A program made the translations under genes and the position numbers. Positions 48,623-63,464 of a stretch of 64,000 nucleotides of DNA are shown here, piece by piece; position 1 is the stretch's first letter; each line of letters begins with the position of its first letter. The stretch lies in contig OZ014412.1 of the NCBI GenBank assembly GCA_963965975.1, forward strand, positions 7,936,708 through 8,000,707, written 5' to 3'. The notes beneath the pieces were generated by a model. That model saw only the letters and a program-made list of their open reading frames with translations, searched no databases and was not told the DNA's origin. Origin of the DNA: Xestospongia bergquistia (Eukaryota > Porifera > Demospongiae > Haplosclerida > Petrosiidae).

Positions 48623-51487
48623 ATGGCTCAAATAGACTCCAAAGCTGTGGAGATCTCACGTAAGACTACTACTACCCAAAAATCTACAAATATATCAGAT
48701 GGAGAGGAGACATCATTGTTAACTTTTCAGCCAATGTTTAATTTTCATCGATTCATACAAGAACACATGATGACACATAATAACCAAATTGATGAGTTAG
48801 TGAGTCAATCAGCTCATATCATTGGTCAAGAGGGTGATGGTAGTATGTTAATTGTATGGGACGCTCCCATCAGTGCGTTGTCTGAAAAGATAGTAACTCA
48901 CATTGGCATTTATCATCCCTCTAGTCCAAGCTATCGTACACTTTTCGTACACGAGCATCGTGTGGAGATAAGTGGAGCATCAGTTGACTCTTTTAGATCT
49001 CTATTAGCCTTTACAGTATGTGAAAAACTAACTGTTGGAGTAAATTATGATACCTTTGTAGCAGAAATCAATCCTTGTAATCGTGTTTTCTCATTAAATT
49101 TGTGCAGTACAGATTTTCGTAAACTCCAATTTGTCCAAGCGGCACAAAGTTCTCATAGACGTCATGCTAAGCCGACTCAGAAAAGTAGCCTGTTAATCAT
49201 CATACCAGACAACTGGATATGCCTGTATTCATTTCAATTAGAGCCCATTGATAAAGGTTACACAGTGATCTCTCAACCATCACAAGATATCATTGTTGAA
49301 GAGTGTCCCTGGTACCAATGGGACCCTGAACTACAATGGCTTTGTTATGCTCGTTTTGGGTCTACACCCACTCAAACAAAGCGTCCTGGGAAAGGCAATG
49401 TTGCTGATAGTTCTGTCATTCTTCATGTTGTATCCTTTATAGGTGGAGAGCAAAAGGTCATCCTTACAGTGGCATTGCCTATTCCATTTCATCATAATCA
49501 TTATACTGAGTCAGCCAACTATTACATGTCTCCACTGGCCTTCTCTCTACCTGTTCATGAGCTCAATATGAAGGTATGTTAATAACTGATTGTGTTGATA
49601 TTTTCATAAGCATTTGTCTTAATAGAATGATGATGTATTATATGCATTTCTCTCTCCCTCCCTCCCTCCTCCCCCCCCCTCTCTCTCTCTCTCTCATACT
49701 CATAGGTACTACACAACAAAGAAGGAATCTGGTGTGTCTGCTTACAACACAAAAATGGTTCTCCTATTCCAACCAGTCAACACCATCACTCGCAAAGTTC
49801 TCATAGAACAGAGCCCAAACTGGAATATTCTGTCTATATATTACATAATGGTCATGTGATTGATGGAGAGGTCCTATTAACAGAGGCTAAAGAAGGCGGT
49901 CATCACATTCAGTTCATGCTACTAGGGAATTTTATCCTAGCATATGTACCTGGTGTAATGTTTCATCTCTTAAACATTAGTATCCACACTGATCCCTGTC
50001 ATCACCTTATACTTAAAGGAAACCATTCACCCATGTTGCCAGAGGTACAAGATATGAACTCTCAACATGGACGGCGGGTATTGACTACAGCTGTTTCCTT
50101 AGGGATTAAAAGTGATGTCTCCTCACCAGTGTATGATTCATACAGCTCATGTTTTTATTCTTGTCGTTTAGAGCCGTTAGCCATTTTGTCTCTCTTTACG
50201 GCTACATCTGATCCTGAGCTTCATCTTACTTTATTGCATATTACTATAATTGGTATAAGACAGTACTCTGTGGCATTACAAATGATTGAACGTATCTGTC
50301 AGACTCCATTTTCTTTAGCTGATTGTCGTATTTTTCAGGAATTTATTCTCGCTTTAAGTTATGCCAATGTTCATCCAGAAAGCCCTGCCTTGTTAGCCAG
50401 GCATCTTCCATTTACCAATAGTCTAACATATCGAGGTGGCATTTACAAAGACCCTGATGGTACTAAGTATACTATTTTACGGTGTACCGAAATGCCCAAC
50501 TTTGTCAAACAGCTCCTGGTCCAATCTGATCAAAAACTTGTATCAGCTACCTCAGATCAGCTGTTCACATATGTGTCCAATCCAGTTGAGTCTTTTGACC
50601 ATCTTTGTTTTAGTGCTGTTCTTAGTCAGCCTTCTATCTATAGGAGAATGAATTTGGAAGATTTAGCTATGCAAGTGAGAGCTCTCGCTTTGAGCACGCC
50701 AGCTCTACCAGCTAATATTAAAAAGCGCATCTCTAAAAAAGACAAACTCGCCTCCCATGAGGCCAGTCCAACTTTGACAAAGAGTGGAATCTTTGTCAAC
50801 AAACTGAAAGATTTGATTCATTCTCCAAGAAGTGGACGTCATGGACAGTCTACAGGTCACATTGGGTCATTGCCATTCCTTTTGCCAGACGAAGACCTTG
50901 ACAATACAATAGTGCTTCACTCTAATCTTTTACACGATCGCTTGGTACAAGTTATGTCCTCTAAATTGGTACTTCATGTAAAAAACTCAATTACACGAAT
51001 GTACAAAAACTGTGAGGACTACTGGTCTGAACTGCAAAGGGTTTCACGCATTTTATTACATATTATATGGCAGTCAATGAAGTTTACTAACGAGACCCAT
51101 CCTCTCCAGATGTCAATTCATCGTCAAGCTTCTATGGAGGAACAGATATTGTTTGAGTTGTTGGAGTCGTACTATATGGCACATATGGAACTTGGGATTC
51201 CTGCTCCATCTGGGTTTGCCACTCTTTTTGTATGTATGGGATATATGTGTTTAGAACCATCTGTCTTTGTCCAGTATCTTTCTAATGGGGTCTTTATTCC
51301 AACACGTCGATTTTTGCAGCTGCTTCTTACGAATTGTGATGAAGTCGATGAACAGTTTTTGTATGAAATTGTGTCTAATTTAGGACTCGAGTCTCAAGAG
51401 ATTGCATTTGAACTTTGGAAACATCCTGTCTTAGTACAGCTGTTGTCTCGTGATAGCTCTGCTGGTAGTAGTGGCAGTCAGAAATAA
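48623..51487 (+). CDS. GSAP: Gamma-secretase-activating protein homologue
   Basis: Two exons, 48623-49573 and 49706-51487, join in phase 0 to give 910 aa (human GSAP is about 854). The ATG is the first in frame after a likely 5' UTR acceptor (TTATTTTTAG); a matching donor at 48490 (GACA|GTAAGT) suggests a short non-coding exon. The N-terminal half is beta-rich and repeat-like. Similarity to GSAP, from memory, lies in ILAYVPGVMFHLLNISIH followed by a CHHLILKGN block, in SLADCRIFQEFILALSY, in GIPAPSGFATLFVCMGYMC, and in the C-terminal IAFELWKHPVL segment, all in the same order as the vertebrate protein. The vertebrate protein was reported to bind gamma-secretase and the APP C-terminal fragment; the role in a sponge is unknown. 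Intron 1 carries a CT-rich tract. The next gene starts 214 bp downstream on the same strand. Confidence 0.8.
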
Positions 51488-51701: not shown

Positions 51702-53779
51702 ATGGCTGGTAATCCTCCACCTGTTGTACCGCGATCTCCTCTCTTGAAATTAGATCCTCCAGAATTTCTCTTATTTAGAGGTCAGTAGGAATAGTGCTAA
51801 AAGTTAGCGAACTGTAGATTGTACCAAATGCAGTCGTAGAATTGCTATATAATATATTATTATGTATGTGTGTGTGTGTTACATATTATTATATATGAAA
51901 CAAAATATAGAGTAGCTTATGTGTTATCCATTTTAAATGGACTGTTTATAATGTCTATAGAGATAAGTTTGTAAATAATGATATTTGTTTTTTATTTAAC
52001 TTAGTTAAATGCAAAATTATACTGTGTACTAGAATTAGGTCACTATTGAGAATACCAGCCATAATATTGATGCCATATTCTCAACTTATGATATAAAGTA
52101 GAGTCTAGAATGTAGCATTAATCTTTTCCCTATTAAAGTATGGCAATACCATCAGTGCAATCAAACCTAATAATAGCTTTGTAATACACCTTATCATTTT
52201 AACTTATTTTGTTTTCAATAGCTCCCTTTGATGAGCGAAAAGTTTGTCTTTTAACACTCACTAACCCTACTCTACGTAGGGTAGGTTTTAAAATGAGATG
52301 CACAGCTGCAGAGTGTTATGCTGCTAACCCTGCTAGTGGTATAGTCGAACCAAATGGACGTAATATTATCTCTGGTAAGAGAAAACTCAATGAATACTGT
52401 ATTGTAGACAAATAGAGGGATAATGGATGACTATATGGGAGATATGGATAGATAATGTGATGGACTCACAAATAAATGGATGACATCATTTGTATGGATG
52501 ATTGATGTATTGATAAATAAATAAACTGACTAATGACAACAGGATAGTTACCAACTATATACTTTGCATATTTCTATTGTGTTTATTGATCAGGGTTTCA
52601 TTTAGAAAAATGGACAAGGGGGGGCAAAATAATACTTAGAGAAAATTTAGGGGGGCGAAGGGACTGCGTGCGACAGTGTGCCCTCTAGGGAAGTCTGGAG
52701 GCATGTGCCCCAGAAAATTTTTGAATTTTAGACCCTCTGAGATTGCTTCTGGCACATTTTCAGACTATTTGTGGTTTTCAAATGACATAGAATAGAAAGA
52801 GTAGAAGAATAGCTGTTTAGGTTAAAAACTGTATATTCTTCTTGTGTTTAGCCTAAGGTTATCTTATGCTGTATATTCCTTGTGTTGAGTTTCAGTTCTG
52901 TATTCATTACATCCAATTACCCCTTTAAAAAAAGGCTAACCTAATGTCCAAGGGGGGGCAAGACTCTGGCAAGGGGGGGCAAATGCCCCCTCCCGCCCCC
53001 CCCTAAATGAAACCCTGTTGATGATATATTATTATTGTGTCACTACCAACACATTAGGTCAATAGGTCCAGTACTAGTTTAACACCTATTGTGTAGTACA
53101 TATGATGTCATATTAATGAATGGAATAAAGACAAGTTATGTTGAATTATGTACCAATAGAAGTTAACCATACATGTCCAGTATTACCAATGACTTTAACA
53201 TTTTAGTAAACTTGAAATGGACCTACTCTATAATATACTAGTTATCACTTCATTAATACACATTGTAGAATGTCTTCTAATAGTATAGCTTTGAAGGTTC
53301 TCACTTACCACTGACTAGTACTACATGTATATTAAGACAACAAGTCCTCAATAGATATCATTTGTATACAGTAACCATATAATAGTCTAGTCACTCAATC
53401 TTTTATACTACACATTTGTACACTTACTCTACATGTTATAAAATCTTCCCTAACATGTATTGGAGATATCCTAATGTAAACAGTATTAAGGAGCTGTACT
53501 ACTACTGTCAAAACAATTGACTTTCAATGTTTTCTATTTTTCATATAGTTTACTTGTGGGAACAGAAAGGAAAAGATCTTACAAAATTGGACTGGAAAAG
53601 ACATCGTTTTGGAGTAACTTATTTGACAGTTGCTAATGACTGTACCATTGAACAAATTGATGATATTGTAAGTAGTACTTACTTACTATAGAAGATTTCT
53701 TTAATATCACTAGAAATATATGATCTGTTTGTTTTGTGTTGAGTTTTACTGCTTGGCACACACAACATGCCAGGTATTC

Positions 53780-53814
<35 letters not shown>

Positions 53815-54600
53815 ATAAAATTCATAGCCATACATTTTGAACAGGAGTGTTGGTTGACTTGGTTCTATATATAGACTTCATAGCAAGTTAATATTTGAAA
53901 ATATTGTGCTGACAACTTAAACAGCTCTAGTTTTTTACTGACCTGATGATAAGCTTTATCATTTCTGTCATTATTGATGGGCCTATAAGCATTATAAACC
54001 TGTCAACCTAAGAATTTAAAAGACTGTAGTTCAACAGCTATGTGCTATTTTATTGAGCAATAATGACAGGCTAATATGAATCTCATGAAAAATTATATCA
54101 TATTATCATGGTTTATTGATGTATATGCATTATATAAACCTACCAACTCAGGATTTTGTAAAAGATATAACACCCTTGGGTTATAGACACTCATATATTT
54201 GTATATCCACTCATTTCTTTTTATTCTATTTGTTGTATTTGATAATTGAAAGCAACAATAAGCCACATATCACCAACACATATAGCATAGCATCCAATGA
54301 ATTTCATTAACTTTAACCACAAGCACTACAATATTGGGTATGACTGATAATGCTTACTAGCTATTCTATATCATTTATAGGTAATAGTCTTCCACAGACT
54401 GTTAATTATACTATTCACTGTGAAGTTAATATCTTCTAAAATAATTATAGGATGATTTTTAATTTACCATTTTGTTTAAAGTTATTATAAATGCAAATAG
54501 ATTTCTATTCAATAATCTAATTTTAATAATACTGCAATATACTGTACTCTGCTTTTTAATGTTTAATGCAGTAATATACATGTACATAATATACATAATA

Positions 54601-54652
<52 letters not shown>

Positions 54653-56180
54653 AATTGTATTTATGTTGTAGATTAGAAGGTCATCAAAAGATGTTCTTAA
54701 AACAGCCATCTTAAAGAGTTTAATTCTAAATGAGGAAGAATCTGAAGACGAGGCTCGTGACATGGTCGGCAATGCTGCTCCTCGTCTAAGAGTATGATCT
54801 TTTGTAATGTAATATTTCTTTTGTTCTATCCATCCATTTGTTTATTCATTTATTTTTCAATTATAATAATTCACTTTTGGTATTTATTTTTGGTAGTTAC
54901 ATACCATATCTTCAGTGAAATCAGGAGAGAATGTATCATCAAATTATCAACAGCAAGAAATAGAAGAACAAATTAAAGCACTAAAAACTGCTTTAGTAAC
55001 TAAAACAACAGAACTGACTATGTTAGCTGATGAACGCAATGATCTTCAAAAGAAGGTCACATTGAATGAGTCAATTATCACTGAAATGGAGAAGGAGAAA
55101 TTAAAATTAGAAAAAGATTTGAAATTATGGAAGGAGAGAGCCGAGGAGAAATTAAAATTAGAAGGAGATTTGAAATTATGGAAGGAGAGACTTGAACAAC
55201 AAGAAAAAGAGAATGAGTTTGCTATGACTCGTAACAAAATGAGAATAAATGAATTAGAAGTAGAAAATGTCCAATTGAAACAAGAAAGACAAAGTGCTGT
55301 TTTGTTCATGGAAGAAAGAGAGGAGGCTCATCGAAAGGAGATCTTGGCGTCGCAAGACATATCATTTTGGGAGGTCAGTTATAAAGACATTACTATCACA
55401 GGAACAGAATTAGGCAGAGGTGCTTTTGCTACAGTCAATGTGGGATATTTTCATGAGCAAAAAGTAGCAGTAAAAATGCTTCATCCTAATATTTTATCAA
55501 ATCACTATATTGAGCTGTTACGACGTGAAGTTGGTCTGATGGCTAAAGTACGTCATCCTCACCTCCTTTTGTTTATGGCTGTAGTATTTGATCACCCAAC
55601 AGAATGTCCCCTAATAATCACTGAGTTGATGACTATGTCATTAAGAAATGCTTTATACAAACCTCCAACTAAACTAGATAACCGTGCCAAGCTTCGTATT
55701 ATGAACGATGTTGCCTCTGCTCTTCATTATCTACACACCCAAAGGGAACCTATACTTCATCGTGATGTTAGTAGTGCCAATGTTCTCTTGGAAGAGCTGT
55801 CCAAAACTTGGAGAGGAAAACTATCTGATTTTGGTGCTGCAAATCTTGCACGATTCTCTATCTCAGCTGCTCCTGGAGCTGAGATATATACTGCTCCAGA
55901 AATTCCTAGAGCATCAGTTTTGATTGAAGAGAATGTAACAGAGCAGACACCTAAAGTCGATGTGTATAGCTATGGGATTTTGCTCTGTGAGGTCTTCACT
56001 GACAAGCCTCAACTGCCCACTAGAGATAGTTATGGTATTATGCTTAAAGCTATTGAAGTTAATTGGTCTCTAATGCATCAACTCATTTTATCGTGTGTCC
56101 AAGTAGAACCACATAAAAGACCAACTATGAAACAAATCCTACAAACATTTCGAGATACTTTTTCTCGTGTTTTGTCATAA
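51702..56180 (+). CDS. MSP-domain / coiled-coil / TKL protein kinase
   Basis: Five exons (51702-51780, 52222-52374, 53549-53667, 54672-54791, 54897-56180) join in phase to give 584 aa. Residues about 14-117 form an MSP/VAP-type beta-sandwich: LKLDPPEFLLF, NPTLRRVGFKMRCTA, NPASGIVEPNGR. In VAP proteins this fold binds FFAT peptides at the ER; here there is no C-terminal membrane anchor. Residues about 180-305 are a charged coiled coil with a repeated KLKLE-DLKLWKER segment. Residues about 318-580 are a protein kinase with all catalytic residues: GRGAFATV loop, VAVK Lys350, HRDVSSANVLL (Asp447, Asn452), DFG Asp468, YTAPE and KRPTM. The loop sequence places it in the TKL group, so Ser/Thr specificity is likely. 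The whole kinase domain and most of the coiled coil lie in one exon. It runs tail to tail with the receptor at 57217-59697. Lipid-contact-site or FFAT-guided signalling is only a hypothesis. Confidence 0.9.
52591..53017. mobile_element. hAT-like MITE in MSP-kinase intron 2
   Basis: A perfect 15-bp terminal inverted repeat, CAGGGTTTCATTTAG, lies at 52591-52605 with its exact complement at 53003-53017. The flanks TTATTGAT and TTGATGAT agree at 6 of 8 positions, as a decayed 8-bp hAT target duplication would. G-tracts next to both ends and the lack of an open frame fit a non-autonomous element. Confidence 0.75.
53779..53814. repeat. (TA)n microsatellite
   Basis: Short TA run in intron 3 of the MSP-kinase gene. 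A second one lies at about 54608-54651 in the same intron, ending about 20 bp before the exon 4 acceptor. Confidence 0.9.
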
Positions 56181-62259: not shown

Positions 62260-62830
62260 TTTGAGTGTCCCCTAATAATCACAGAGTTGATGACTACGTC
62301 ATTAAGAAATGCATTATACAAACCTCCAACTAAACTAGATAACCATGTCAAGCTTCGTGTTATGAACAATGTTGGCTCTGCTCTTCATTATTTACACACC
62401 CAAAGGGAACCTATACTTCATCATGATGTCAGCAGTGCCAATGTTCTCTTGGAAGAACTGTCCAAGACTTGGAGAGGAAGAGCTTCTGATTTTGATGCTG
62501 CAAATCTTTCACGATTGTCAGTCTCAGCTGCTCCCAGAGCTGAGATATATACTGCTCCAGAAATTCCTAGAGTGTCAATTTTGACTGAAGAGAATGTAAT
62601 AGAACAGACATCTAAAGTCAATGTTTATAATATGGTGTTTTGCTCTGTGAGGTCTTCAATGAAAAGCCTCAACTACCCACTAAAGATATTATGCTTAAAG
62701 CTATTGAAGTTAATTGGTCTCTAATGCATCAACTCATTTTAATGTGTGTCCAAGTAGAACCACATAAAAGACCAACTATGAAACAAATCCTACAAACATT
62801 TTGAGATACTTTTTCTCGTGTTTTGTCATA
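62260..62830 (+). pseudogene. Decayed partial copy of the MSP-kinase catalytic domain
   Basis: It matches 55603-56180, from the ECPLIITEL segment to the stop. Two catalytic motifs are altered: HRD is HHD and DFG is DFD. A 1-base deletion near 62628 shifts the frame, a further deletion removes the GDSYG-equivalent region, and TGA replaces CGA in the terminal TFRDTF segment. It lacks the glycine loop, the VAVK lysine, the coiled coil and the MSP domain. The similarity continues past the stop to about 63250. Confidence 0.92.
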
Positions 62831-63464
62831 AAATTGTATGAATTATTATTTCAATTTTTTGCATTAGCTTTGTATAATTCATATGTTATTTTCATTCTTA
62901 AAATGATCTATATATTGTTCAATGGAAATTGCATAATAACTGCTGTATATCCAGTACTTGAAAGGAATGCCCAATTGATTTATTGATTCATATTTTGAGC
63001 ATTGAACATTTTATTTCTTGTAGTCACGTTCCCAGACCTACCAAGTATAGACATAGAATACTAAATTACACATATATAACATTTCTGTTGTCGACTATAT
63101 TAAAGCTTTGGCAAATTTTATTTCAGCAATTGTTCATAAGTTAAAGAGTATGACATAATATTGACTCTGATTTAATCTATAATAATAATCATTAGATTTT
63201 ATACCAAGAATACTATAACAACATGGTTAAATATAATTATATAAAAATAATAATTTTATTTAATTTTATATAATTATAGATGTATATTGACTATTTCTAC
63301 ATTTTCTAAATAATTGTTTCAGTTAGTCTATGAACAGAACTCTAATAATAATCACAATAATAACTAAAAACACTATTAGTATAATAATCTAAATATAAAA
63401 AGACCAAAGTATCATTATGAAAAATATCACCTAAAATGTCATTTTGATGGTTCATTTGATATAT
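62831..63464. other. Copied kinase 3' flank and spacer
   Basis: 62831-63250 is a diverged copy of 56181-56610. 63251-63464 is AT-rich with nothing recognised, and is presumably 3' UTR of the next minus-strand gene. Confidence 0.75.

Follow-up and report, generated by a model that had tools for sequence, protein, structure and literature searches.

A predicted sponge gene joining an MSP domain, a probable coiled coil and a TKL-type kinase in one open frame

The window, meaning the whole stretch of DNA that was analysed, comprised 64,000 nucleotides of Xestospongia bergquistia contig OZ014412.1 (forward strand, positions 7,936,708 to 8,000,707), and positions below are those of the window unless a contig is named. 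A five-exon gene, hereafter MSP-kinase (copy A), was rebuilt from the sequence of the + strand; its introns are GT-AG throughout, and its exons join in frame from the ATG at 51702 to a stop codon ending at 56180, giving a product of 584 amino acids. The in-phase joining of all five exons was thereby reproduced from the initial annotation, including the 53667/54672 and 54791/54897 junctions. The features of the locus and of a nearby relative were as follows.

51702..51780, + strand: exon 1, residues 1-27; the ATG and the beginning of the MSP domain, aligned to VAPA; not found in copy B
52222..52374, + strand: exon 2, residues 27-78; MSP core, 98.0% identity to copy B with no amino-acid change
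53549..53667, + strand: exon 3, residues 78-117; more of the MSP core, 100% identity to copy B
54672..54791, + strand: exon 4, residues 118-157; end of the MSP domain by VAPA alignment, then an acidic linker
54897..55364, + strand: exon 5, 5' part; E/K/L/Q-rich probable coiled coil ahead of the kinase
55365..56180, + strand: exon 5, 3' part; TKL-type kinase domain and stop codon
62263..62831, + strand: kinase pseudogene fragment; related to the 3' half of the kinase but truncated and frameshifted, 90.5% nucleotide identity

Upstream on the same strand, an open frame at 49706-51487 matched the C-terminal part of gamma-secretase-activating protein (PF14959, 1.7e-28); it ends about 215 bases ahead of the MSP-kinase ATG.

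The N-terminal part of the protein was matched by Pfam Motile_Sperm (PF00635) over residues 15-110 with an E value of 8e-16 and 58.3 bits against a cut-off of 25.9, and a weaker match to Cep192_D6 overlapping the same part remained under its cut-off (24.4 against 35 bits). The best solved-structure match of this part by phmmer was the MSP domain of VAPA (2cri, residues 11-133, E 4.6e-11), the similarity continuing through the exon 3/4 junction up to residue 133. The VAP-like MSP domain predicted at the N-terminus was thus recovered by both searches. No membrane anchor was seen on a Kyte-Doolittle scale, where the highest 19-residue mean was 1.59 and lay within the kinase; the C-terminal anchor of VAP proteins is absent, and the earlier statement that the protein lacks an anchor holds. 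Ahead of the kinase, E, K, L and Q are abundant in a stretch that has one glycine and lacks proline. A crude heptad test of this stretch was not significant, the observed score being reached by 129 of 500 shuffles with a window of 28 and by 49 of 500 with a window of 42. For this reason the proposed coiled coil, which the composition favours and the heptad test does not, is graded here as likely.

The kinase domain was matched by PF07714 over residues 326-574 (E 2.9e-34) and carries a Gly loop (GRGAFATV from 330), the VAVK lysine (from 347), the HRD aspartate and loop asparagine (HRDVSSAN from 445) and DFG (from 468). Among the best 60 of 1923 solved-structure matches, the leading kinases were CTR1, B-Raf, TNNI3K and IRAK4, and the domain lies nearest to TKL members as judged by these best structure chains. 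The lysine two residues after the HRD aspartate is replaced by serine (HRDVSSAN against HRDLKSPN in CTR1), so that the claim of a complete catalytic set stands for the Gly loop, VAVK, HRD, loop asparagine and DFG but not for this lysine. When the catalytic loops of 30 related loci in the genome were compared, HRD[VI]SS[ASP]N was found in 27, HHDVSSAN in one and no loop within the open frame in two; the serine is therefore common to the family and does not indicate decay of the MSP-kinase gene. TNNI3K has asparagine in place of the catalytic-loop lysine and is still active. MSP-kinase is described here as a TKL-type kinase with putative phosphotransfer activity, against which the replaced lysine counts.

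A second copy (copy B) was found about 22.9 kb downstream of copy A on the same contig, in which exons 2-5 are repeated with the same splice sites. Exon 1 was not found in copy B, where the first in-frame Met of exon 2 corresponds to residue 51 of copy A, and with exon 1 absent, the MSP domain of copy B may be incomplete. A haplotype duplicate was ruled out as the source of copy B, since both copies lie on one contig with other sequence between them, and a retrocopy was ruled out by the introns that both copies share. The coding parts of the two copies differ by 19 substitutions in 1676 bases, with no indel (dN 0.0077, dS 0.0254, dN/dS about 0.3), and nonsynonymous changes are in shortage (10 of the 19; binomial p 0.011). 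By comparison, introns 2-4 show 55 differences in 1776 aligned bases together with 625 gap columns, and the 3' flank shows 20 differences in 460 bases. The slower divergence of coding sequence relative to introns 2-4 (Fisher p 8e-5) supports the exons being coding, and gene conversion could account for part of the low coding divergence. Residues 28-130 are free of amino-acid differences between the copies; exon 4 carries three amino-acid changes in its 40 residues, which is 3/10 of all such changes.

These comparisons bear on the reading of the duplicated locus as a decaying remnant without a working product. The missing exon 1 of copy B would fit such decay, as would the fragment at 62263-62831, which is matched in two frames, contains an in-frame stop and has HHD in place of HRD; copy A is nevertheless open from ATG to stop, and the dN/dS of about 0.3 between copies free of coding indels speaks against it, so that we regard decay as very unlikely. 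Farther downstream, some 62 kb from copy A, a further kinase 3' fragment with 98% protein identity was observed (C2:8055228-8055494).

The same duplicate bears on whether the MSP and kinase parts belong to two adjacent genes, one coding for MSP alone and finishing within or beyond exon 4, the other a kinase gene of its own confined to exon 5. Exon 4 runs into a stop codon one codon beyond its donor site, the complete kinase is contained in exon 5 alone, and AATAAA or ATTAAA words are present in intron 3 (one, at 53814) and intron 2 (three), as is common in A+T-rich sequence. Against this, intron 4 is short (105 bp in copy A, 109 bp in copy B), has splice sites that agree between the copies and contains neither AATAAA nor ATTAAA, and exon 5 has its first Met near residue 199, within the coil-like stretch. 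Two separate genes are on this evidence improbable. The fusion described in the initial annotation is upheld as one open, spliceable frame whose exons are conserved over the introns in the duplicate, though not every transcript need carry both parts. Because exon 4 is 120 nt long, its skipping would preserve the frame, and because of the stop just past its donor, an MSP-only product could arise by retention of intron 4, which at 105 bp is short enough for retention.

When the kinase was used as a query, all 142 scored places among 362 candidates in the genome matched, including the MSP-kinase gene, copy B and the two nearby partial copies. The five next closest family members share 52-55% identity over the kinase, and many family matches are clustered on contigs C11 and C14. 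A single in-frame TAA interrupts the match in many of the C11 members, among which there may therefore be pseudogenes or genes with an intron at that point. On inspection by eye, 27 of the 30 best loci have a coil-like stretch joined to the kinase in one open frame, with varied N-terminal sequence ahead; the exceptions are L013 and L022, which have no N-terminal part in frame, and L034, which is a fragment.

The N-terminal parts of eight relatives chosen from these 30 (L010, L023, L024, L027, L028, L029, L032 and L033) were scanned against Pfam, and no family scored above its cut-off in any of them. In L027 the second half of a CAP-Gly domain came one bit short (25.5 bits against 26.5), and the first half was met in upstream frames of L027 (E 0.003) and L025 (E 0.001), both below the cut-off; L025 and L027 thus probably carry a CAP-Gly domain that is split by an intron and placed ahead of coil and kinase. 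The weak matches in L010, L024, L029 and L033 (E 0.002 to 0.008) seem to reflect chance or coil, and L023, L028 and L032 gave no Pfam match. In L023, residues ~1-240 of the open frame form a non-coil region, behind which come an extended coil-like segment and then the kinase; by eye we take this region to be HSP70-like, for which Pfam gave no match. Besides copy A and copy B, only four loci in the genome (L001-L004) gave MSP matches, and no kinase match among the 142 comes closer than 0.8 Mb to any of these. No MSP domain was found in the coil-kinase family L009-L036, and within the genome searched the combination of MSP and kinase was found only at the MSP-kinase locus and its copy.

For analysis of the peptide pocket, the 12 FFAT-contact residues of VAPA named in a passage of PMC7610837 were mapped onto MSP-kinase by alignment. 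Three of the 12 are identical (K50, T54, F95), three are changed conservatively (V51M, K52R, K94R) and the other six are changed (T53C, V61A, R62N, N64A, M96G, K125I), so that the pocket lacks several of the residues by which VAP holds its usual partners. In the four other MSP loci, inspected by eye, positions 52-54 read K-T-T in L001, L002 and L003 and K-G-T in L004. Over eight places (50-54, 61, 62 and 64), MSP-kinase has six changes; L004 has four and L003 three, while L001 and L002 have no more than one each. The place of M96 is occupied by Leu in L002 and L004 (by eye); tblastn gave nothing clear for the last MSP exons of L001 and L003, and residues 94-96 were not found there.

It had been suggested initially that the protein might be a soluble kinase directed to FFAT motifs. 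MSP and kinase in one frame without an anchor agree with the first half of this proposal, and the FFAT-directed half is weakened by the contact residues. A true reader of FFAT or phospho-FFAT motifs, by which a soluble kinase would be delivered to FFAT-bearing proteins, would be in keeping with VAPA as the best solved-structure match, with the retained K50, T54 and F95 and with arginine at the places of K52 and K94. In MOSPD2, mutating Arg404 and Leu406 abolishes FFAT binding, according to a passage of PMC10449529. The changes M96 to Gly, K125 to Ile, R62 to Asn, N64 to Ala, V61 to Ala and T53 to Cys in MSP-kinase count against such a reader, as do the K-T-T of L001, L002 and L003 and the Leu at the M96 place of L002 and L004. 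We take MOSPD2 Arg404 and Leu406 to occupy the places of VAPA K94 and M96; if this is right for Arg404, arginine is tolerated at the K94 place. With much of the FFAT contact surface changed, a canonical FFAT role is judged unlikely, as is FFAT-guided delivery of the kinase, and a different peptide or an MSP-MSP contact is a more likely partner of the domain than a canonical acidic FFAT motif.

The reading that we favour, with confidence somewhat better than even, is that of a cytosolic TKL-type kinase in which the N-terminal MSP exons would serve as a recruiting or assembly module with a partner that is probably not FFAT, the coil-rich region would dimerise the protein, and the kinase domains, when clustered, would phosphorylate each other in trans. 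The gene is likely to have originated through the placement of MSP exons ahead of a coil-kinase exon, in a family that was expanding and whose members differ in their N-terminal parts. A more far-reaching version, offered tentatively and in our estimate rather unlikely, is that a lineage-specific family of soluble coil-kinases uses varied N-terminal recruiters (MSP, CAP-Gly and others), and that in the MSP version an altered VAP pocket may recognise peptides of a new class, by which membrane contact sites would be coupled to phosphorylation directly and within a single protein.

As judged from the sequence, the combination of MSP and kinase looks real and unusual and would represent a new domain combination in an already known, TKL-like kind of kinase. 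No kinase with an MSP domain was described in the portions covered of the literature matches listed, which come largely from non-subscription journals. MSP is named among the domains integrated in NLR immune receptors (PMC8832786) and among integrated domains overlapping with the targets of effectors (PMC4759884), in passages that do not concern kinase fusions; of two kinome papers, PMC3019232 does not contain 'sperm' in its main text, nor PMC1420674 'MSP'. Phospho-FFAT motifs imply that VAP contacts can be under the control of kinases, and of the human VAP-family proteins, five in number, MOSPD2 alone bears an extra domain, which is not a kinase (both from passages of PMC7610837). A natural fusion of MSP and kinase would directly test the link between kinases and VAP contacts, and the way in which kinases acquire targeting domains could be studied well in this genome, where a large kinase family has its coil-kinase exon preceded by varied N-terminal parts.

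Compared with known systems, MSP-kinase resembles VAPA and VAPB in the order of an MSP domain followed by a (here probable) coiled coil (passage of PMC7610837), but it has no membrane anchor, carries a kinase at its C-terminal end and has largely changed FFAT contacts. With MOSPD2 it shares the joining of MSP to a second, unrelated domain, CRAL-TRIO in that protein (passage of PMC7610837), whereas MOSPD2 is a membrane-anchored ER protein and its second domain is no kinase. The coil-kinase family of the same genome (L009-L036) has coil-like sequence and kinase in one frame and the HRDxSSxN loop in common with MSP-kinase and differs in its N-terminal parts, one of which has CAP-Gly halves. The TKL kinases CTR1 of plants, B-Raf, TNNI3K and IRAK4 are, among those 60 of 1923 matches, the solved-structure kinases nearest to it, and from these MSP-kinase is set apart by its HRDVSSAN loop, its MSP module and its membership in a large local family.
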